IMG/VR virus record: IMGVR_UViG_3300009146_000047
Coordinates: 1-21,650 of that record
DNA: 21,650 nucleotides
Strand: one strand, 5' to 3'
From: a virus
Below the pieces are notes generated by a model that made no database searches, had not been told where the DNA came from, and saw only the letters and a list, made by a program, of their open reading frames with translations. How positions within the stretch are numbered: the stretch's first letter is position 1; each line of letters opens with the position of its first letter. A program made the position numbers and the translations under genes. Positions 4,331-14,438 of the stretch are shown one piece after another.

Positions 4331-5448
4331 TGAATTTCGTTACCGCATTCCAAAAAGGAAAAGAAGGAATGAACTTGGGTTTACCAATGGGCATTCCTTC
4401 TTTAACTAAGGACACATTAGGAACTCAAAAAGAACATATATATAGTATAGCAGCACCGCCAAAAGTAGGAAAGACAACATTAATAGATTTCATATTCATA
4501 TTAGCTGTATATATGTTATCTCCAAATGCTAATGTAGAATGGATATATTATTCATTTGAAATAAGCAGGTTAAGAAAGGAGTTTAAATTTGCTGCTTTTT
4601 TTATGTTTCGTGATTTTGGTATTCAGTTATTTGAACATGAAGGTAAACAATATCCAATAAGTGCTGATTATTTAATGGGGAAGTTACTAGATGATAATAG
4701 TAAACCAATTGTTGTTAAGACTGAACATGAAGAGCAATTAAGAATAATCTATAGAACAAGGATAATTCCTTTATTTGGTGAGTATAATATAAGAGGAGAA
4801 AGAATAAAGAAAGGTAGAATAGATTTCATTGAACATAGAGAAAATCCAACTGGTATTAGGAACTACATATTGACATATGCCAAACAGAATGGAAAGTTTG
4901 TTGTTGAAAAATATACTATCATTGATAAGAATGGAGATAAGGAACAGAAAGAAAGGATTATAGGTTATCAACCTAATGATGAAAACAAACAATTGATTGT
5001 TATCACAGATCATGTTAGAAAGTTAGTTAGAGAGAGAAATTTTAGTATGAAAGAGAACATTGATAAGTTTGCTGAATATCAAGTAGAACTTCGTAATATA
5101 TGCAAATTTATATTCGTTAATGTAATTCATACTAATAGAAACATATTTGACATTGAAAGAATAAAGTATGCTGGTGAATACTTTTATCCTAGTTCTGAAG
5201 ATGTGAAAGATACAGGTAATTTGAGTGAAGATAGTAATGTAGTATTTACAATGTTTAATCCAAATGATGATAAGTATGGTATTAAGAAACATTTCGGATT
5301 AGAGATAGTAGATAAGAATGATAGATTACTTCATCCTAATTATCGTAGCTTACATATAGTTGAAGCTAGAGATATTCCTGATGCACCATTACATTACCAG
5401 TTAAATATGTTTGGTAATTTGAATTGGTTTAACCCCATTAAAAAATAA
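4330..5448 (+). CDS. DnaB-like replicative helicase (RecA-fold ATPase)
   Basis: The 372-residue protein has a RecA-type core in the DnaB order: Walker A APPKVGKTT (42-50), a YYSFEIS segment (74-79) like the FSLEM motif of DnaB, Walker B LIVITDH (222-228), a FVNVIHTNR motif (262-270) in the place of the DnaB H4 sensor, and DVKDTGNLSEDSNVVF (291-306), which follows the DnaB pattern DLRESG...DADVV closely. It lacks the N-terminal primase-binding domain and carries an insertion of about 110 residues between the FSLEM-like motif and Walker B. It should unwind the fork ahead of the family B polymerase and work with the primase encoded at 7814. The call is firm at family level; whether it is hexameric and replicative is inferred from context. 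Confidence 0.85.
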   Translation: MNFVTAFQKGKEGMNLGLPMGIPSLTKDTLGTQKEHIYSIAAPPKVGKTTLIDFIFILAVYMLSPNANVEWIYYSFEISRLRKEFKFAAFFMFRDFGIQLFEHEGKQYPISADYLMGKLLDDNSKPIVVKTEHEEQLRIIYRTRIIPLFGEYNIRGERIKKGRIDFIEHRENPTGIRNYILTYAKQNGKFVVEKYTIIDKNGDKEQKERIIGYQPNDENKQLIVITDHVRKLVRERNFSMKENIDKFAEYQVELRNICKFIFVNVIHTNRNIFDIERIKYAGEYFYPSSEDVKDTGNLSEDSNVVFTMFNPNDDKYGIKKHFGLEIVDKNDRLLHPNYRSLHIVEARDIPDAPLHYQLNMFGNLNWFNPIKK

Positions 5449-5479
5449 AAATAAACTACGAAAAACAAAAACCCTAAAT

Positions 5480-5572
5480 ATGACAGAGACAATATGTTTT
5501 GTAGCATTCCTTATAGTATTATACTATTTAGAGGACATTGATAGATTCATTCAAAAAAACTTTTTTAAATGA
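5480..5572 (+). CDS. Candidate microprotein, 30 aa, hydrophobic N-terminal half
   Basis: A short ORF fills an otherwise empty 120-base gap between two ATPase genes. The product has a hydrophobic stretch CFVAFLIVLYYL (6-17) followed by an acidic turn and a basic, Phe-rich end. Its TGA overlaps the ATG of the next gene as ATGA, the same junction seen at proven gene boundaries here, and A-rich sequence precedes its own ATG. The hydrophobic run is short for a full span, so a peripheral or small membrane peptide is possible. It could be a chance ORF or a translational leader for the Sak4-like gene. Confidence 0.5.
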   Translation: MTETICFVAFLIVLYYLEDIDRFIQKNFFK

Positions 5573-6315
5573 GTAACATTTTAGTGATTGCTCCAAGTGG
5601 ACTTGGAAAGACAACATCTTTCATACCGCATCCTGAATTTGGAATTAAAGGATTGAATCCAGCAGAGACATATGTGTTATCCATAACAAAGAAAGATTTA
5701 CCGGGAAAAGGTACAAGAAAGATGTATCCTGTATATGAGAAGTTCAGCTTAAAGAGTATAGCTGTTGATTTAAAAGATTACAGGAGGTTGATATTTTCTG
5801 ATTGGAATACTAGAACAGACTTAATAGTTCATGCATTGCACCTATTAGCTGGAATAGCACCAATTAAGAATATAGTATTAGATGATGCTAATTACATCAT
5901 GCAGGACTATTATATGGCAAAGTCATTGAGTACTGGATGGGATGCACCAAAGAAGATAGGTAACATGATGGGTAAGATATTTGAAGCAATTGAAAAGTTG
6001 CCAAATAATAAGAACTTCATCATGATGGCTCATGGAGAAGAATATGATACTGCTGATGGCAGAAAAGGTTATCGTTTTAAGACTACTGGCAAAGCAGTTC
6101 AGGAATACATTACTCCCGAAGGCAAATTTGACATTGTTCTGATTGGTAGGAGCAGGTATGATGATGCCGAAAAGAAGGCTATTAAAGAGTTCGTAGTCGA
6201 AGATGATGGCTTTTATGCTACTGCAAAATCTCATGGCGCATTTGGTACTCCATATATCTTAAATGATATGGGATTGGTGGTTGACAAGGTAAATGCCTAT
6301 TATGATGGAATTTGA
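5569..6315 (+). CDS. Sak4-like RecA-fold ATPase (AAA_24 type), probable recombination protein
   Basis: The 248-residue protein begins directly with a Walker A motif, APSGLGKTT (8-16), at the very N-terminus, and has a Walker B NIVLDDANYI (101-110) and a sensor-like segment MMAHGEE (152-158). This compact single RecA core with N-terminal P-loop is the arrangement of phage Sak4/AAA_24 proteins, which promote single-strand annealing together with the phage SSB. An SSB-like gene lies 600 bases downstream, and two PD-(D/E)XK nucleases lie in region 4, which fits. It could instead be a generic phage nucleotide-binding protein of the AAA_24 family. No terminator is evident after it. Confidence 0.82.
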   Translation: MSNILVIAPSGLGKTTSFIPHPEFGIKGLNPAETYVLSITKKDLPGKGTRKMYPVYEKFSLKSIAVDLKDYRRLIFSDWNTRTDLIVHALHLLAGIAPIKNIVLDDANYIMQDYYMAKSLSTGWDAPKKIGNMMGKIFEAIEKLPNNKNFIMMAHGEEYDTADGRKGYRFKTTGKAVQEYITPEGKFDIVLIGRSRYDDAEKKAIKEFVVEDDGFYATAKSHGAFGTPYILNDMGLVVDKVNAYYDGI

Positions 6316-7813: not shown

Positions 7814-8866
7814 ATGTACCAATATTCAGAGTTCATTCCATGTAGGAAGGAAGAAGTGCTGAAAAGATTAAGTCAAGAAGAAATCTACTTATTAGTATTA
7901 GATGAATTACCACCAGTTAACACATATGTTAAGTCTCCATTTCGAGTAGATAAAAAGCCAGGTTGTTACTATACATGGTATAATGGCATACTATATTTCA
8001 AAGATTTTGGTGACCCGAATTATCCAATGAGAGATTGCTTTCAAGCAGTCATGGATAAGATGCATCTTACATTCAAAGAATGTTTGTTATTCTTAAATGA
8101 TTACTTTCAATTAGGCTTGAACTCTGGTAGTTCCAAGCCTATTTTGTTTGATAACGTATTTATAAATAACAAAGCTAACAAATCAATACTAGGCAAAATC
8201 ACTAAGATTGGTGAAGAAAGACCTAGTGATGAAATAGTGTATAAAGCTAGAGGCTTCTTTCCAATAGATAAGAACTACTGGTATGATAGATACGAAATAA
8301 GAAGAACTAATTTGATGGAAGATAATGTATTTGCTGGAATATGGTATCAGTTTTATAGTAGAAAAGGAATACTGATTACTATTAGGCCAACAGATATTAT
8401 GTATGCATATAGTGACTTTGACAATGGAAGAACAAAGATATACAGACCTTTGGCTCCACAAAAAGCAGGTAAATGGCTTACTAATTGTAATGAAAATGAT
8501 ATAGGTGGTATAAGAAGATTACCGAGAATTGGTATTATCTTATATATATTGAAGTCATATAAAGATTACAGAGTAGTCAAGAATGAAGGAAAGGATTGTA
8601 TATGGTTTCAAAATGAAGGAATGTTTCCGAAAGAAGAAATATTAATGGACTTGTGCATTAGATTTGTCAAAATAATTGTTATCTTTGATAATGACGAGAA
8701 AGGTATTATTGCTGGATTGAAACTCACAGAGAAAATTAATAATCTCTATCCAAACAAAGCAGTATTAAAATACATTTCAAATCAAGTCAAGGATGCGAAA
8801 GACCCATCAGATTTAAAGCATAGGCATGGTAAAACTGAATTAAATAAATTTTTAGATTATGGCTAA
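7814..8866 (+). CDS. DnaG-like primase (TOPRIM)
   Basis: The 350-residue protein shows the TOPRIM signature in its C-terminal half: an ILKSYKDYRVV strand-helix (245-255), the catalytic-Glu segment FQNEGMFP (265-272), the metal-binding FDNDEKG (291-297) and the downstream KDAKDPSDL (326-334), all as in DnaG-type primases. The N-terminus has a SPFRVDKKPG segment (41-50) like the zinc-ribbon domain of DnaG, but the four metal-binding cysteines are not there, so this domain is degenerate. It would make RNA primers for the polymerase and work with the DnaB-like helicase. The primase stop overlaps the UDG start by eight bases. Confidence 0.88.
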   Translation: MYQYSEFIPCRKEEVLKRLSQEEIYLLVLDELPPVNTYVKSPFRVDKKPGCYYTWYNGILYFKDFGDPNYPMRDCFQAVMDKMHLTFKECLLFLNDYFQLGLNSGSSKPILFDNVFINNKANKSILGKITKIGEERPSDEIVYKARGFFPIDKNYWYDRYEIRRTNLMEDNVFAGIWYQFYSRKGILITIRPTDIMYAYSDFDNGRTKIYRPLAPQKAGKWLTNCNENDIGGIRRLPRIGIILYILKSYKDYRVVKNEGKDCIWFQNEGMFPKEEILMDLCIRFVKIIVIFDNDEKGIIAGLKLTEKINNLYPNKAVLKYISNQVKDAKDPSDLKHRHGKTELNKFLDYG

Positions 8867-9551
8867 TATTCCAGCATCAATTCATGAATCATGGCATCCA
8901 TTAATAGGAGGTTTTTTTGAAAGTGATTCATGGAAGAATCTAAGAGATAATGTACTGAAGTCTAAATTTTATCCTGAAAAAGAAAATGTATTTAGAGTAT
9001 TTAAAATGCCAGTTGATAAGGTTAGAGTAGTAATATTAGGACAAGACCCATATGCTAAGAAAGGTCAGGCTACAGGCTTGGCCTTTGCTGTTAATGAAGG
9101 ATTTCCTAAACCATTTAGCTTACAAGCTATAGAAAAAGAAGATGGTAATAACTTTGATAAATCATTAACTGATCTTGAAAATAGGGGAGTGTTCTTATTA
9201 AATACTGCTTTAACTGTTGAACCTAATAGTCCCGGCTCACATGTAAAATATTGGAGAGGCTTTTCAGAGCAACTTATAAGTAGATTAAGTAAAGTACAAC
9301 CAGCATTCTATTTATTATGGGGAGAGAAAGCAAAATCTTTCTTACCTTTCATACATGATAATGATATACTGGAATATCAAAGTTGTCTACAAGCTTATGT
9401 TAAGCTAGATAAGAATAATGTGTTAATAGCAGGGCATCCTGCTGCTGAATATTATACTAGTGGTAAAGGTGGATTTTATGGTAAACATCACATGAGACTG
9501 ATAGATGATATTCTAACTAGTAGAAGAATGAAAAGAATTTTTAAATATTAA
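8859..9551 (+). CDS. ung: Uracil-DNA glycosylase, family 1
   Basis: The 230-residue protein removes uracil from DNA. Family 1 motifs: GQDPY (61-65, Asp63 the general base) followed by the GLAFAV segment (73-78) whose Phe stacks on uracil; FLLNTALTV (112-120) with the uracil-specific Asn115; and AGHPAAEYY (191-199), where His193 replaces the usual start of HPSPLS. The usual His after GQDPY is Ala here, and HPSP has become HPAA, so the DNA-binding loop differs from cellular enzymes, but catalytic residues are kept. It overlaps the primase gene and precedes the Ubl candidate by twelve bases. Presence in the replication operon suggests repair of misincorporated or deaminated uracil during genome copying. 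Confidence 0.95.
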   Translation: MANIPASIHESWHPLIGGFFESDSWKNLRDNVLKSKFYPEKENVFRVFKMPVDKVRVVILGQDPYAKKGQATGLAFAVNEGFPKPFSLQAIEKEDGNNFDKSLTDLENRGVFLLNTALTVEPNSPGSHVKYWRGFSEQLISRLSKVQPAFYLLWGEKAKSFLPFIHDNDILEYQSCLQAYVKLDKNNVLIAGHPAAEYYTSGKGGFYGKHHMRLIDDILTSRRMKRIFKY

Positions 9552-9563
9552 AAACAAAACACA

Positions 9564-10316
9564 ATGTCACAAGAGTTAAGTATCTCCGAGCAAAGAAAAA
9601 TTAATGTTGTTAACACAGGTGGAAAGAACTTTGTCCACACTTCATCTGCACAAACATTAGGACAGCTAATGGCAGAACTGGAAAGACAAGGTGTTAGCAG
9701 ACAAGGTAAGAAGATGATAATTGGTGAGAACAGGCATACTCTGGAAGTAGATGAAGCAGTATTGCCTAAATCAAACTTTACTTTCTTTTTGTTACCTGCA
9801 CAAACTAAGAGTGGAGCATCTGAAACAAGAGCAAGGATTAAGGAAATAATTGGGCATTTCCCCGTAGAGGGGAAAGCCCATTTTAGTGCAGATAAGAGTT
9901 ACACTAATAAGAAGGAAGCTGATTTGGTTGCATTGTTAGATAGTTGGGTAACGCCAAAGGTAGCAGCAGCATTGGAAGCACAGGATAAGTTACCTAAAGA
10001 AAAGAAGGTGAAAGAGCCTAAAGCTACAAAGAATGTAGCAGATGTTGTGCAAAGTGTAGCTGATGCTGGCCCAAAAGAATTCAAAGGTAGTGTTAAAGGT
10101 GTTAGTGAAACAAATGGTGATAATCATACTGAAATGTTATTGAAAGCTATTGATAAAAAGCTGGATTATATCATATCACACATTAATACACCACCACCAG
10201 AGGTTAAAGTACCAGAACAACTTCCATTTAATGACGAACCACTTAAAGAAATTACCGATATTAATTCAGCAACAATGGATATTAAAAGGGAGTTTCGTGG
10301 ATTAATCAAATATTAA
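9564..10316 (+). CDS. Ubiquitin-like (beta-grasp) domain protein candidate, 250 aa
   Basis: Residues 13-84 can be read as a beta-grasp fold: strands INVVNTGG and KNFVHTS, helix LGQLMAELERQG (32-43), strand KKMIIGEN, and final strand NFTFFLLPA (71-79), which ends in QTKSG (80-84). The end recalls the small Ubl of PRTRC cassettes. The identification leans on the E2-like, JAMM and E1-like genes directly downstream. Unlike a free ubiquitin, 166 residues follow: a helical part, a Lys/Pro/Glu-rich linker (140-180), a helix (187-207) and a Pro-rich end. If Gly84 is the conjugated end, proteolytic processing is required. A hairpin like a terminator lies within codons 96-106. The gene is the last of the primase-UDG unit and is followed by a terminator. 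Alternative: an unrelated replication protein. Confidence 0.6.
   Translation: MSQELSISEQRKINVVNTGGKNFVHTSSAQTLGQLMAELERQGVSRQGKKMIIGENRHTLEVDEAVLPKSNFTFFLLPAQTKSGASETRARIKEIIGHFPVEGKAHFSADKSYTNKKEADLVALLDSWVTPKVAAALEAQDKLPKEKKVKEPKATKNVADVVQSVADAGPKEFKGSVKGVSETNGDNHTEMLLKAIDKKLDYIISHINTPPPEVKVPEQLPFNDEPLKEITDINSATMDIKREFRGLIKY
9851..9884 (+). other. Terminator-like GC-rich hairpin inside the Ubl candidate gene
   Basis: Arms 9851-9863 and 9869-9880 pair over 12 bp with one bulged A at 9856 and a five-base loop (GTAGA, 9864-9868); four T follow at 9881-9884. The stem includes TTTCCCC/GGGGAAA and GGGC/GCCC, by far the most GC-rich stretch in the gene. It lies about 35 bases after the codon for Gly84, the candidate end of the Ubl domain. 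It could attenuate transcription or stall translation within the gene. Confidence 0.6.
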
Positions 10317-10330
10317 TTGATTACTTAATC

Positions 10331-10362
10331 AGGAGGGATAGCATCATGTGCTATTCCTTTTT
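10331..10362 (+). terminator. Intrinsic terminator after the Ubl candidate gene
   Basis: Arms 10334-10343 and 10349-10358 pair over 10 bp with one G-U, around a five-base loop, and extend outward with G-T pairs; the 3' side runs into a T tract (10358-10362). It begins 15 bases after the stop. It covers the ATG at 10346 that would otherwise look like an N-terminal extension of the next gene. Confidence 0.8.
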
Positions 10363-10375
10363 CATTCTTCATACT

Positions 10376-11506
10376 ATGGAAAGAGTAACAAACAAATTAA
10401 TGACTGATTGGTTAGATGCTGTTAATTTAGCACAATTACCAAAGAACATTCATTGGATAGATAATCAAATTAAAAAAGGGAGGATAAATAAAAAATGGCA
10501 TAACTTCTTGCTTTTTACAATGGAATCTTTACAAGTTATATATCCTGATAAATGGGATATACAATTCAATATCTATAATCACTTTACTACTGAAATAAAA
10601 GAGAACTATGCAGGTTATGATTATGTAATTACTTATAATCAGCGACAATATATCTTTGATATAATTGTTAAGTTCCCTGATATAACTATTACCAATTCAG
10701 TAAATTTTAAACATAATATAAAAGATTTGTATGTTAAGATACAATTTGTATATTGTGAGGAAATTGACAATTTTGTTCCATTTGCCATTGGTGGAACTAG
10801 AGGTAAAGTAACTGATATTGAAGCATATAGTTCTTATATGCATTCTCATCTACAATTTCTAGTAGGTAATTTTTATCCATTTTGTATAGGTGACAGGGAA
10901 AGTGAATTTGGTGCTTTGATGATGGAATGTGCTGATAACTTAACCAGAGAAAACTTTCAAGCATTATTCTATATGTTAGAAACACTAGTAGGATGGGAAT
11001 CATTAGAAGGAGTACCGTTTTATAAGATAGGAAATTTAAATAGTAATGAAACTACACTACCAGTAATCTTAGAATCAGATAATAAAAGTTATGCAGAAAA
11101 GCTATTTGAATATAGACAGGAAAATAGAATGGATATTAACTGGAAGTATGAGAATGAAGTAAAAATAAATGATGATGAAACATTTGAAGAGTACATTAAG
11201 TTTTCTAGTGACATTAGAGAGTATGTTCAAAGTTATATAGTAGGAAGATTAACAAATGGTGATTATGTAAATCTATCTAAAAGAAAGAAACTTCCTACAC
11301 AAACTCAACTTGATAGAACATTCATTTATAATGGAGATAATATTAAGCTTGAAATAGTAACAACAACTGAAAGCTTTGTAAATAACTTCTTTGTTCATCC
11401 AAATATTAAAAAATACATTAAAACTCATTTAGAAAATGAAGCCAACAACCATATCAAGAGAAGTAATAGAGAGAAAAGAATTAGTAAGTTTGGTTATCCC
11501 GAATAA
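10376..11506 (+). CDS. E2-like (RWD/UBC-fold) ubiquitin-conjugating enzyme homologue
   Basis: I place the start at the ATG at 10376 because an upstream in-frame ATG (10346) lies inside the terminator hairpin; the product is 376 residues. Residues about 80-215 follow the pattern of prokaryotic E2-like proteins: paired strands (YDYVITYNQR, QYIFDIIVKFPD), another strand pair, then YMHSHLQ (154-160), and GNFYPFCIGD (164-173), resembling the HPH...G.xCxG segment that holds the E2 catalytic Cys (Cys170, bases 10883-10885). GWESLEGVPFYKIG (206-219) resembles the post-catalytic region of such families. About 150 further residues form an unknown C-terminal part. The next genes encode JAMM and E1-like enzymes, which strongly supports the call. 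The gene overlaps the JAMM gene by 71 bases. Confidence 0.6.
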   Translation: MERVTNKLMTDWLDAVNLAQLPKNIHWIDNQIKKGRINKKWHNFLLFTMESLQVIYPDKWDIQFNIYNHFTTEIKENYAGYDYVITYNQRQYIFDIIVKFPDITITNSVNFKHNIKDLYVKIQFVYCEEIDNFVPFAIGGTRGKVTDIEAYSSYMHSHLQFLVGNFYPFCIGDRESEFGALMMECADNLTRENFQALFYMLETLVGWESLEGVPFYKIGNLNSNETTLPVILESDNKSYAEKLFEYRQENRMDINWKYENEVKINDDETFEEYIKFSSDIREYVQSYIVGRLTNGDYVNLSKRKKLPTQTQLDRTFIYNGDNIKLEIVTTTESFVNNFFVHPNIKKYIKTHLENEANNHIKRSNREKRISKFGYPE

Positions 11507-12545
11507 CATCATGCATAAGTTAAGATATATCTGTAATGAAATCTACAAAGAAGAATGGTCAGCAGCATTGTTTTATAGAGTGAAAGGTTCTATCCGCAAT
11601 CCAAGTAAAATGAAATTAACAGTAATTGATTTCTTTCCAATGGATAAAGGTAGTGTTGCACATACTGAATATGATATAGACCAAGGTGATAATGCTCTTG
11701 TAGGTTACATGATGGAAAATGAATTGTTTGGTAATATTATATTAGGACATTTGCATTCTCATAATACAATGTCAGTATTCTTTTCTCCAGAAGATACAGG
11801 TGAATTACAACGCAATGTATCAAATCATAACATCTATTTATCATTAATAGTAAATAATAAGATGGAAATGACAGCAAGAGTTGCTTATGAAGCAAATTGT
11901 GTTGTTAATCCAAATTTTGTTGCTAGAGATGAGAATGGAGATGAGTATAATATCAAAGGTAATGAGTATACTGAAAGCATTATGTGTTTTCACAATGTGG
12001 AAATTATTAAGCCACCAGAGATATTCAATGTTGATACTAAATTTAAGGAAAGGATTGCGGAAATTATTAAGGAAGCAGAGAAAAGAGAAGCAGATAAGAA
12101 AGCAAAAGCTATTGTTCCAGTAAGTCAAGCATACCAAGGTAGTTGGAATCAAGGATGGGAAGGTAATGATTGGACAAATAAAGAAGGTAATAGGAGCAAT
12201 AGTAATAATGGTTCAATGGAAGATTTACTTAAATTTGTTCTTAATAATGGGAAGAACTATGGATATGAAACTACTACTGCTATATTGAATAAGAGAGAAA
12301 GAGTAGCAAAGACAGATGTAGAGTATGTTAAATTTGTAGTTGAGAACTATCTTAAATTATATATGAAGTATTTCAATCTTGTTGATTCTAATCAAATCAA
12401 AGCAAATACATTTGTTAGTCATTTAGATAGTGTAATAACTAATCTTAGAATGTATGAAAAGCAATTCCCATTTGTAGTTAATATCGGAGTACAATTAGAT
12501 TCTTATAAAACAAAATTATTATCAAATGTCACAACAACGGGATGA
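11436..12545 (+). CDS. JAB/JAMM metallopeptidase (Ubl deconjugase or processing enzyme)
   Basis: The MPN+/JAMM motif is complete: His107-Ser-His109, seven residues, Ser117-x-x-Asp120 (in GHLHSHNTMSVFFSPED), with an upstream Glu at 39 or 40 (KEEWSAALFY) in the place of the catalytic Glu. His107, His109 and Asp120 would bind zinc. Such enzymes cleave isopeptide or peptide bonds after Ubl C-termini. The upstream strand LVSLVIP (16-22) belongs to the domain, so the start at 11436 is preferred over the ATG at 11511, although that one sits just after the E2-like stop. After residue 160, a linker (about 230-255) rich in Gly/Asn/Trp joins a helical C-terminal region (260-369) of unknown role. The end overlaps the E1-like gene by 20 bases. 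Confidence 0.88.
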   Translation: MKPTTISREVIERKELVSLVIPNNIMHKLRYICNEIYKEEWSAALFYRVKGSIRNPSKMKLTVIDFFPMDKGSVAHTEYDIDQGDNALVGYMMENELFGNIILGHLHSHNTMSVFFSPEDTGELQRNVSNHNIYLSLIVNNKMEMTARVAYEANCVVNPNFVARDENGDEYNIKGNEYTESIMCFHNVEIIKPPEIFNVDTKFKERIAEIIKEAEKREADKKAKAIVPVSQAYQGSWNQGWEGNDWTNKEGNRSNSNNGSMEDLLKFVLNNGKNYGYETTTAILNKRERVAKTDVEYVKFVVENYLKLYMKYFNLVDSNQIKANTFVSHLDSVITNLRMYEKQFPFVVNIGVQLDSYKTKLLSNVTTTG

Positions 12546-13782
12546 TTTCTCAATATCAAGAAGTCTTGCAGCAATAGAAGCAAGAGATTTAGCAGCAGAA
12601 AGAAGAAGGTTAATGGAACCAATGTCAGAAGAAGAAAGAGCAGAATATGAAAGGACATTTATAGAACCACCAGATAATATAATGATGAATAGTTTATCTG
12701 TTAATGCAAGACCCAATGTAACTGGTGTTCCATTTACTACTGCAATGGGTACACCATCAAGTGATTTAGTAATGTCAGCAGCTACAGCTATGTTAGCAGC
12801 ACAAAGAAGAAATCCATTAACTTCAAGTGAAGTATATCCAAATGCTAGTGATATGTTTGAACAGTTAGCACAAGAACATGTAAGAACATATGAAATTTCA
12901 TCAACTGAAAGTTCCAATGTAAATGATATTACTGCATATACTGAAGAAGAAGCAAGAAGAATGTATGAAACATTTGTTCAACCTATTGAAACTGCAAGAC
13001 AAGCAGCATTTGATACATTAGGAATACCAGCATCAAAGTTAAATGAAAATCCAGATGTTACTAAATCAATGGAGATAGCTGATAAAGCAAAAGAGAAGAT
13101 AGTACCAACTAAGTATTCTAGGTTTAAAGATGCTCCTTGGTTTGGTGATGGTGAACATGTATTGATAGGTGGTGCAGGTGGTATTGGTTCATGGTTAGCA
13201 TTGTTTCTAAGCAGAGCAGGATTTAAACCTATTGTATATGACTTCGATATAATTGAAGAACATAATATGGGTGGACAATTCTTTAGGAAAAAGAACATTG
13301 GTAAGACAAAGACATTTGCATTATCTGAACTGATAGGTGAGTTTTGTGATAGTTCCATTGACAATATTAATGAAGCTTATGGTGAAGATTCAATGGTAAA
13401 TGAATATACTTTCTCTGCTTTTGATAATAATGCAGCAAGGAAAATTATGTTTAATAAGTGGAGAATGGAATATGAAGGAAATCCTAATGCAATTTTCATT
13501 GATGCTAGGTTATTATTTGAACAATTAACTATATTTGTAATACCGGGAACAGACTATGATAGAATTGAGGAATATTTAAGTAAGAACTTGCCTGATGATT
13601 CTACTATTGCAAATGAACCTTGTAGTCAGAAACAAACTACTCACACCGCTGCTCACATAGCTGCTCAAATGGTAGAATTCTTTACTAATTTCCTTACAAT
13701 GCAGAAATCAGAAGATGAACTTAAATTATATTTACCATTCAAATGGGAATATCTAGTACCATTGGGTGAAATACCAACTTAA
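12526..13782 (+). CDS. ThiF/E1-like Ubl-activating enzyme
   Basis: Residues 208-390 form a ThiF/E1 adenylation domain: Rossmann loop LIGGAGGIGSWLA (213-225), the acidic strand end VYDFDIIEEHNMGGQFF (237-253), which matches the E1 pattern D.v..sNl.RQ, then KKNIGKTKT (255-263) and FDNNAARK (299-306), like the D...aR segment. Cys366 in NEPCSQKQTTHTAA (363-376) is positioned as the catalytic thioester Cys seen in E1 and ThiF enzymes. The CxxC zinc pairs of ThiF/MoeB are missing. The first 200 residues are Ala/Glu/Ser-rich, mostly helical and without known domain. It would adenylate the C-terminus of a Ubl and pass it to the E2-like protein. The gene overlaps the JAMM gene and is three bases from the next one. 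Confidence 0.9.
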   Translation: MSQQRDDFSISRSLAAIEARDLAAERRRLMEPMSEEERAEYERTFIEPPDNIMMNSLSVNARPNVTGVPFTTAMGTPSSDLVMSAATAMLAAQRRNPLTSSEVYPNASDMFEQLAQEHVRTYEISSTESSNVNDITAYTEEEARRMYETFVQPIETARQAAFDTLGIPASKLNENPDVTKSMEIADKAKEKIVPTKYSRFKDAPWFGDGEHVLIGGAGGIGSWLALFLSRAGFKPIVYDFDIIEEHNMGGQFFRKKNIGKTKTFALSELIGEFCDSSIDNINEAYGEDSMVNEYTFSAFDNNAARKIMFNKWRMEYEGNPNAIFIDARLLFEQLTIFVIPGTDYDRIEEYLSKNLPDDSTIANEPCSQKQTTHTAAHIAAQMVEFFTNFLTMQKSEDELKLYLPFKWEYLVPLGEIPT

Positions 13783-13784
13783 TC

Positions 13785-14438
13785 ATGGAAAACTTTTTAA
13801 ACTTAGATAGTATTGGTAGGATAAGTTCATATCTATATAAAAAGACAACTACTTGTGATACAGTTAACAATCCTTTTGTTCCATTTTTCAATTTGATTAA
13901 TGGACAAAAGATTGTTTTTGATGGGAGGATGCTATATGAATATAATAGATATTATTATGGAGTTAGTGATACCATAAGACAACATCGTAATGATTATCTT
14001 AATTTAATGAGATATATAGTAGGTGGAAATGGTTTACAAGCTGTAAAGTTAGGGGAAGTAACTTATATTGTAGCAAGAGGCTTATTAATAGAATATGAAA
14101 ACTTAACACAAGAAAAAACAATTTTAGCATTGTGTATTGCAAAGGATAGCATTTTTAAATTTGATAGGAATAATATTGATACATCTAAAATGGTACTATT
14201 AGTTGACTATAGATTTGCAACAGAAGAAAGATATAAACCTGTATTTAAAAAAATTAATACAATTTATCTTACTGCTGCAAGAGTTCACAAAATAGCAATT
14301 ATGTATGTTGATGATGTTGATAGTTGGTGTTATAATCCAAATGACGAAATAAAGATGAAGTTTAGAAATGTTACTCAAATGAAAGAATATTTAAATAAAT
14401 TTAATTCATTAACTTATGGACAAGCACCAGAACTCTGA
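13785..14438 (+). CDS. Unknown protein tied to the Ubl module, 217 aa
   Basis: No family recognised. It is rich in beta-prone hydrophobic stretches (VTYIVARGLLIEY at about 89-101, TILALCIAKDSIF at 107-119, KMVLLVDYRF at 130-139) with a later TIYLTAARVHKIAIMYVDD. Starting two bases after the E1-like stop, it is almost certainly co-translated with it, and it overlaps the next gene by 23 bases. Cysteines are present but no catalytic pattern is clear. A substrate adaptor, E3-like factor or target of the conjugation system is possible from position only. PRTRC cassettes also carry extra proteins of unknown fold beside ThiF, so a comparison with them would be useful. Confidence 0.8.
   Translation: MENFLNLDSIGRISSYLYKKTTTCDTVNNPFVPFFNLINGQKIVFDGRMLYEYNRYYYGVSDTIRQHRNDYLNLMRYIVGGNGLQAVKLGEVTYIVARGLLIEYENLTQEKTILALCIAKDSIFKFDRNNIDTSKMVLLVDYRFATEERYKPVFKKINTIYLTAARVHKIAIMYVDDVDSWCYNPNDEIKMKFRNVTQMKEYLNKFNSLTYGQAPEL

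Follow-up and report, generated by a model that had tools for sequence, protein, structure and literature searches.

Ubiquitin-like pathways of bacteria are known mainly as weapons against phages. In the anti-phage Bil operons (BilABCD), genes for a ubiquitin-like protein (Ubl), an E2, a JAB protease and an E1 follow one another in that order, and the JAMM protease matures the Ubl (PMC11354881). The PRTRC loci of plasmids (type 6d of Iyer et al. 2006) keep the same order, with Ubl C, E2-like B, JAB A and a ThiF E1, and in plasmid loci they are adjoined by ParB and so linked to the replicon. Here we analyzed a window of 21,650 bases, the entire IMG/VR virus record IMGVR_UViG_3300009146_000047, in which four consecutive genes, A to D, present a Ubl-E2-JAB-E1 layout in a phage. 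The layout is already known from PRTRC and Bil; what is new is the phage setting, a predicted removable tail on the Ubl and the lack of ParB, E and F. We consider it likely that crAss-like phages of Bacteroidota encode in A–D a self-contained pathway for the reversible conjugation of a ubiquitin-like protein.

The module lies on the plus strand of a left-to-right early/replication operon, where helicase/ATPase-like genes precede the two genes that mark its genomic address, a DNA primase (from 7814) and a uracil-DNA glycosylase (UDG; from 8859; together 7814–9551). A preliminary description of this DNA had set out four open reading frames (ORFs) here as Ubl candidate, E2-like protein, JAMM protease and E1. 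All four are where it placed them, and their co-occurrence in related phages, on which its reading had hinged, proved almost perfect. A tblastn search with D found 78 phage records, comprising 74 crAss-like phages (Steigviridae including crAss001, DAC15, PhiCrAssBcn and cr85_1; Flavobacterium Fpv phages; Dulem 41; bajarodcaudo 1) and four jumbo phages (Xanthomonas PhiXhv-12/15/16 and Erwinia Ep032). In INPHARED, a JAMM query returned 74 records of the same organism make-up as the E1 set without the jumbo phages. In crAss001 the module genes run from gp79 to gp75 (A-B-C-D being gp79–gp76), flanked by primase gp80 and UDG gp74. Three alignment scans of IMG/VR yielded 240 loci, with 267 confirmed relatives of the E1 and 300 of the JAMM protein; many of these loci overlap one another as parts of a single contig, leaving about 155–162 distinct sequences per gene. 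With our own hidden Markov models (HMMs), the order A-B-C-D on a single strand was recovered at every locus except at contig ends and in a jumbo phage, and was seen in about 155 distinct phage contigs. Among 84,980 prokaryote genomes we found three loci, all in metagenome-assembled genomes, a lower bound given that this was one scan with short patterns. The four genes and the module are real, and the pattern is far beyond chance. The ratio of non-synonymous to synonymous substitution rates (dN/dS) against the nearest relative (L001 in our locus numbering) was 0.23 for A, 0.28 for B, 0.26 for C and 0.20 for D, indicative of purifying selection on all four; the values for UDG and primase were 0.27 and 0.16. 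Database annotations label single parts of the module (“ThiF”, “metalloprotease”, “E1 enzyme family protein”). We found no description of a crAss-like tagging system in the open-access literature, subscription papers lying outside the search, and the crAss001 paper and a 2021 survey of crAss-like phages do not mention the system in the terms searched.

The first gene, A, is predicted to encode the Ubl. An AlphaFold model built from 135 window and IMG/VR sequences has a pLDDT of about 95 across residues 10–80, and nearly all of its Foldseek matches in the PDB are ubiquitin, SUMO, ISG15, NEDD8 and UBX folds (best E 9e-5, probability 1.00, target TM mostly 0.55–0.69). Residues 1–84 (9564–9815), which end in K82-S83-G84, thus have the ubiquitin (beta-grasp) fold that had been suspected in this product. 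Gly84 (codon 9813–9815) is the sole invariant residue of A, present in 157 of 157 distinct homologues and mostly as K-S-G, and it sits six residues past the last strand, a spacing close to that of ubiquitin. Fold and invariant glycine together match a beta-grasp modifier with a C-terminal glycine, and we predict that Gly84 is the site of both JAMM processing and conjugation.

What follows Gly84 varies. Among the 157 distinct proteins the length beyond it is bimodal (1–5 residues in 20, 22–24 in 2 and 50–252 in 135), and placing the short and long forms on a FastTree phylogeny of the E1 requires 13 changes, of which well-supported branches force at least 6. In phage cr106_1, the A gene is broken directly after KSG (KSGKF-stop), a homing endonuclease gene comes next and the C-terminal domain forms a separate ORF; a group I intron was considered as the cause and rejected, as Rfam detected none and translation of the downstream ORF can begin at a start codon of its own. 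Two phages that lack B, C and D (L274 and L348) carry an ORF of 82–92 aa, upstream of rIIA/rIIB, that matches solely the post-KSG part of A (E 2e-8 and 1e-10); a Ubl domain was found in neither phage. The short forms, the cr106_1 split and these remnants mark the Gly84 boundary independently several times (at loci L274, L348 and L014 among others), and the Ubl domain is tied to the enzymes, the tail independent of them. In the window the extension (9816–10316), which we expect to be cut off the Ubl, is modeled as helices (87–98, 100–107 and 118–141) followed by a coiled or unstructured tail. The helical stretch bears only a weak resemblance to HeH and SAP domains, with weak matches of two members each; DNA binding by the tail would be a guess. 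One phage (L110) carries a tandem pair of A copies, at 4706–5137 and 5227–5709.

The two best-recognized enzymes are encoded by C and D. In C (11436–12545), the residues E40 (11553–11555) and H107, H109, S117 and D120 (11754–11795) are all present in the window and 98–100% conserved in 162 distinct homologues, bearing out the complete JAMM motif read in it earlier. Prok-JAB was matched by 12 of 12 members of the JAMM family, mostly weakly (best 1.1e-6), and the C family profile aligned to PRTRC-A with P 5e-8, as against P 0.02 or worse for the remaining PRTRC proteins. By motif and homology, C thus appears to be a complete JAMM protease. In Flavobacterium phage Fpv1 (L276, 64000–71500; 1370–3662, minus strand), the JAMM gene is broken right at its catalytic His-Ser-His codons (YVGH / IHSH) by about 1 kb with an endonuclease gene on the opposite strand; the JAMM gene of Fpv3 is intact (compare L002 8737–10005).

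For D (12526–13782), the previously noted E1/ThiF domain with its Rossmann loop and Cys366 also held up. R199 is kept, and the GxGG Rossmann glycines, D241, K262, D300, R305 and C366 (13621–13623) are conserved at or nearly at 100% in 155 sequences; D clears the cut-off of Pfam ThiF (2.6e-12); the protein matches UBA5, MccB, Uba1 and Cap2 structures; and its profile aligns to that of PRTRC-ThiF with P 9e-21, pairing C366 with the PRTRC cysteine. The E1 domain (about residues 196–414) is preceded by an N-terminal stretch of variable length and sequence. From these residues and matches, D reads as a complete E1, with both ATP site and cysteine.

Protein B (10346–11506, conserved start at 10376) is the E2 candidate. 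H168 (10847–10849) and C180 (10883–10885) are invariant in 162 of 162 sequences despite about 20% identity; this cysteine is the Cys170 singled out in the preliminary description, which counted from 10376. The structure model of B (pLDDT 92) has helices, a four-strand meander, an HxH motif, the cysteine and two helices, the order of secondary structure given for E2 folds (PMC1779556). PRTRC-B was the top match of B among seven PRTRC profiles, with the cysteines paired in the alignment, though not significant (P 0.036). In BFVD, Foldseek matched the B model to phage proteins that bear no informative name and are, for the most part, likely relatives of B. We judge with good confidence that B is a very diverged E2, and we predict E2 activity for it.

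Compared with the described systems, the module is closest to PRTRC. Its E1 and JAB are homologous to the PRTRC proteins, and the two share a conserved Gly end of the Ubl, a CxG motif in the E2-like protein and residence on a mobile replicon. The phage module differs in having no ParB, E or F and no sign of an RPW-type JAB N-domain, in its mostly long-tailed Ubl, in a larger B with an upstream HxH and in its place in a phage replication region. PRTRC ParB, E and F were unmatched by the phage A–E profiles and none is annotated beside the module in the phages examined, and the curated PRTRC models stayed below cut-off (PRTRC_A 11.9 of 101.8 bits; PRTRC_ThiF 26.7 of 144.75 bits). From Bil the module is set apart by carrier, here a phage, and by architecture: BilD is a pseudodimer with a Cys domain, BilA has two Ubl domains and BilB a CEHH motif. 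The PADLOC Bil models matched none of the window proteins, and the BilD model was matched weakly (2.5e-5) by the crAss001 E1 alone. The E2-E1 fusions CBASS Cap2/Cap3 and 6A-MBL have an E1 adenylation domain and a JAB protease in common with the phage module, which by contrast is unfused and has its own Ubl; as against type II CBASS in particular, D lacks a fused E2, and among its neighbors no nucleotidyltransferase was recognized. Lambda-type tail proteins likewise pair a phage Ubl with a C-terminal extension (gpI) and a JAB peptidase (gpK) (PMC1779556), but these are tail rather than replication genes and come with no E1 or E2. Homology of C and D to PRTRC, combined with the absence of ParB, E and F, suggests a phage-specific variant that is a member of neither PRTRC nor Bil. 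The preliminary reading as a Ubl, E2-like, JAMM and E1 set is thus strongly supported, but its alignment with PRTRC, Bil and CBASS did not extend to membership in any of them.

From established family chemistry and the anatomy of these proteins, we propose the following pathway. The JAMM protease C would cut the precursor A after Gly84, leaving a Ubl with a C-terminal glycine; D would adenylate this glycine using ATP and hand the Ubl on via Cys366; B would take it on Cys180 and transfer it to target lysines; and C would also remove it from targets again. Encoded with replication genes, such a pathway would most likely modify phage or host proteins in favor of infection. If true, the constant presence of a complete pathway in a large group of phages that can be cultivated, crAss001 and its relatives, would reverse the picture of these systems as weapons against phages. 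A virus with its own tagging kit, otherwise described in cells and plasmids, would offer a new route to phage takeover of bacteria and a small four-protein system in which to dissect the evolution of ubiquitin conjugation. It would also make gut phages that are poorly understood accessible to biochemistry, with functions for several “hypothetical” crAss-like proteins, and it directly predicts Ubl adducts in infected Bacteroides.

Several results weigh against the proposed pathway. By sequence, A matches none of the known Ubl families; no Pfam, NCBIfam or PHROGs profile names it, and a PDB sequence search with it gave nothing useful. The D domain is small, without a separate Cys or UFD domain, and the jumbo group (about 228 kb) has a related E1 alone, as in PhiXhv-15 (L006, 7932–8615), where Pfam found no JAB, E2 or Ubl among the E1 neighbors. 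For B, Foldseek gave no significant PDB match, the best being a chain of kinetochore CENP-O, a protein containing RWD domains (E 0.035, poor superposition). The PRTRC-B comparison is not significant; nor was that with a few Cap2-type E2 sequences, in sets too small and with two of four sequences badly extracted. A PDB sequence search with B was no more useful. Of the profile searches that had been proposed at the outset, ThiF named D and Prok-JAB named C, but none in Pfam, NCBIfam or PHROGs named B. Samples of Spirochaetota and Bacillota held too few Prok-E2 members to build a profile, and three genomes held no members of Prok-E2_D. These findings, together with the long strands and large C-terminal half of B, unlike minimal E2s, would fit a conjugation system in which the E1 passes the Ubl on directly, as with Urm1 or SAMP, while B has a fold of its own and binds substrates or works as some other thiol enzyme. 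We regard this as improbable, given the invariant His/Cys pair, the E2-like order of secondary structure, the position of B between Ubl and JAMM as for PRTRC-B and BilB, and the pairing of both cysteines in its best, non-significant PRTRC alignment. Less probable still is a ThiS/ThiF/JAMM-like sulfur carrier serving cofactor, amino acid or RNA modification with no protein tagging, which we think very unlikely. The closest named E1 models are indeed ThiF (1.3e-14), databases use the name “thiamine biosynthesis protein”, and E1, Ubl and JAMM also occur together in sulfur-transfer operons (PMC1779556). Yet D misses all ThiF equivalog cut-offs by far, the annotated neighbors in the phages examined include no thiazole synthase, rhodanese, MoaE or thiolation enzyme, B with its invariant cysteine is never missing and A mostly bears a long extension past its glycine; we reject the thiamine label as a database misnomer.

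If protein conjugation is what A–D perform, its role may be read from the module's address, which related phages fill differently. Steigviridae without the module have other genes beside the primase. In cr108_1 and Cellulophaga phi14:2 these are ATP-grasp or GGACT, COOH-NH2 ligase, Gln amidotransferase and Amidoligase_2 genes, and cassettes of ATP-grasp, COOH-NH2 ligase, amidotransferase and amidoligase genes lie between primase and UDG in L273 (10277–17330) and L275 (10025–15666), with no Ubl module. In cr116_1, rIIA/rIIB stand beside the primase, as do their homologues in L274 (10529–15584), L348, L298, L302, L308, L339 and L344. A primase-anchored survey of loci with 5 kb downstream visible found the Ubl module at 32, amidoligase genes at 7, rIIAB at 5 and other genes at 8, never two together; the counts are of loci, not independent lineages. 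In T4, rIIA and rIIB act in anti-exclusion. Both the Ubl cassette and the amidoligase cassette would use ATP to make amide bonds, a common chemistry that suggests a shared task, and the exchange of cassettes shows that replication and the replisome can do without the module. We tentatively propose an interchangeable “protein-tagging” address, at which a Ubl pathway, an amidoligase or rIIAB would each serve host takeover or counter-exclusion, so that viruses would be using ubiquitin-type conjugation offensively in bacteria. That the module itself is such a device, tagging or disabling host defense proteins or jamming a host Ubl-based defense, is a serious possibility, if short of an even chance; it is, however, a constant feature of its phage groups, whereas many anti-defense genes are patchy, and it shows no homology to Bil or CBASS past the E1 fold. 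Somewhat less probable is that its substrates are replication or repair proteins of the phage itself. This would suit its constant place beside primase and UDG, near helicase and exonuclease genes, and the ties of PRTRC loci to plasmid partition (ParB), as well as a plasmid E2-D/JAB/ThiF locus that adjoins a primase-polymerase and dnaN, but relatives with the same primase manage without the module. Because the module swaps with rIIAB, we place host takeover or counter-exclusion slightly ahead of replisome modification. The plasmid locus just mentioned, from Anabaena cylindrica (L269, 1155–8324), lies between its primase-polymerase and dnaN genes, a link to replication.

Downstream of D, the plus-strand operon continues with gene E (13785–14438), a gene matched by PHROG alone (from 14416) and an exonuclease VIII-like gene (from 14999). 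B and C overlap by 71 nt and C and D by 20 nt, and two bases separate D from E; from these junctions, translation of B, C, D and E is probably coupled. By synteny and HMM, E occurs only with A–D, and it is the fastest evolving of these genes (dN/dS 0.37); its product may be a substrate or adaptor of the module.

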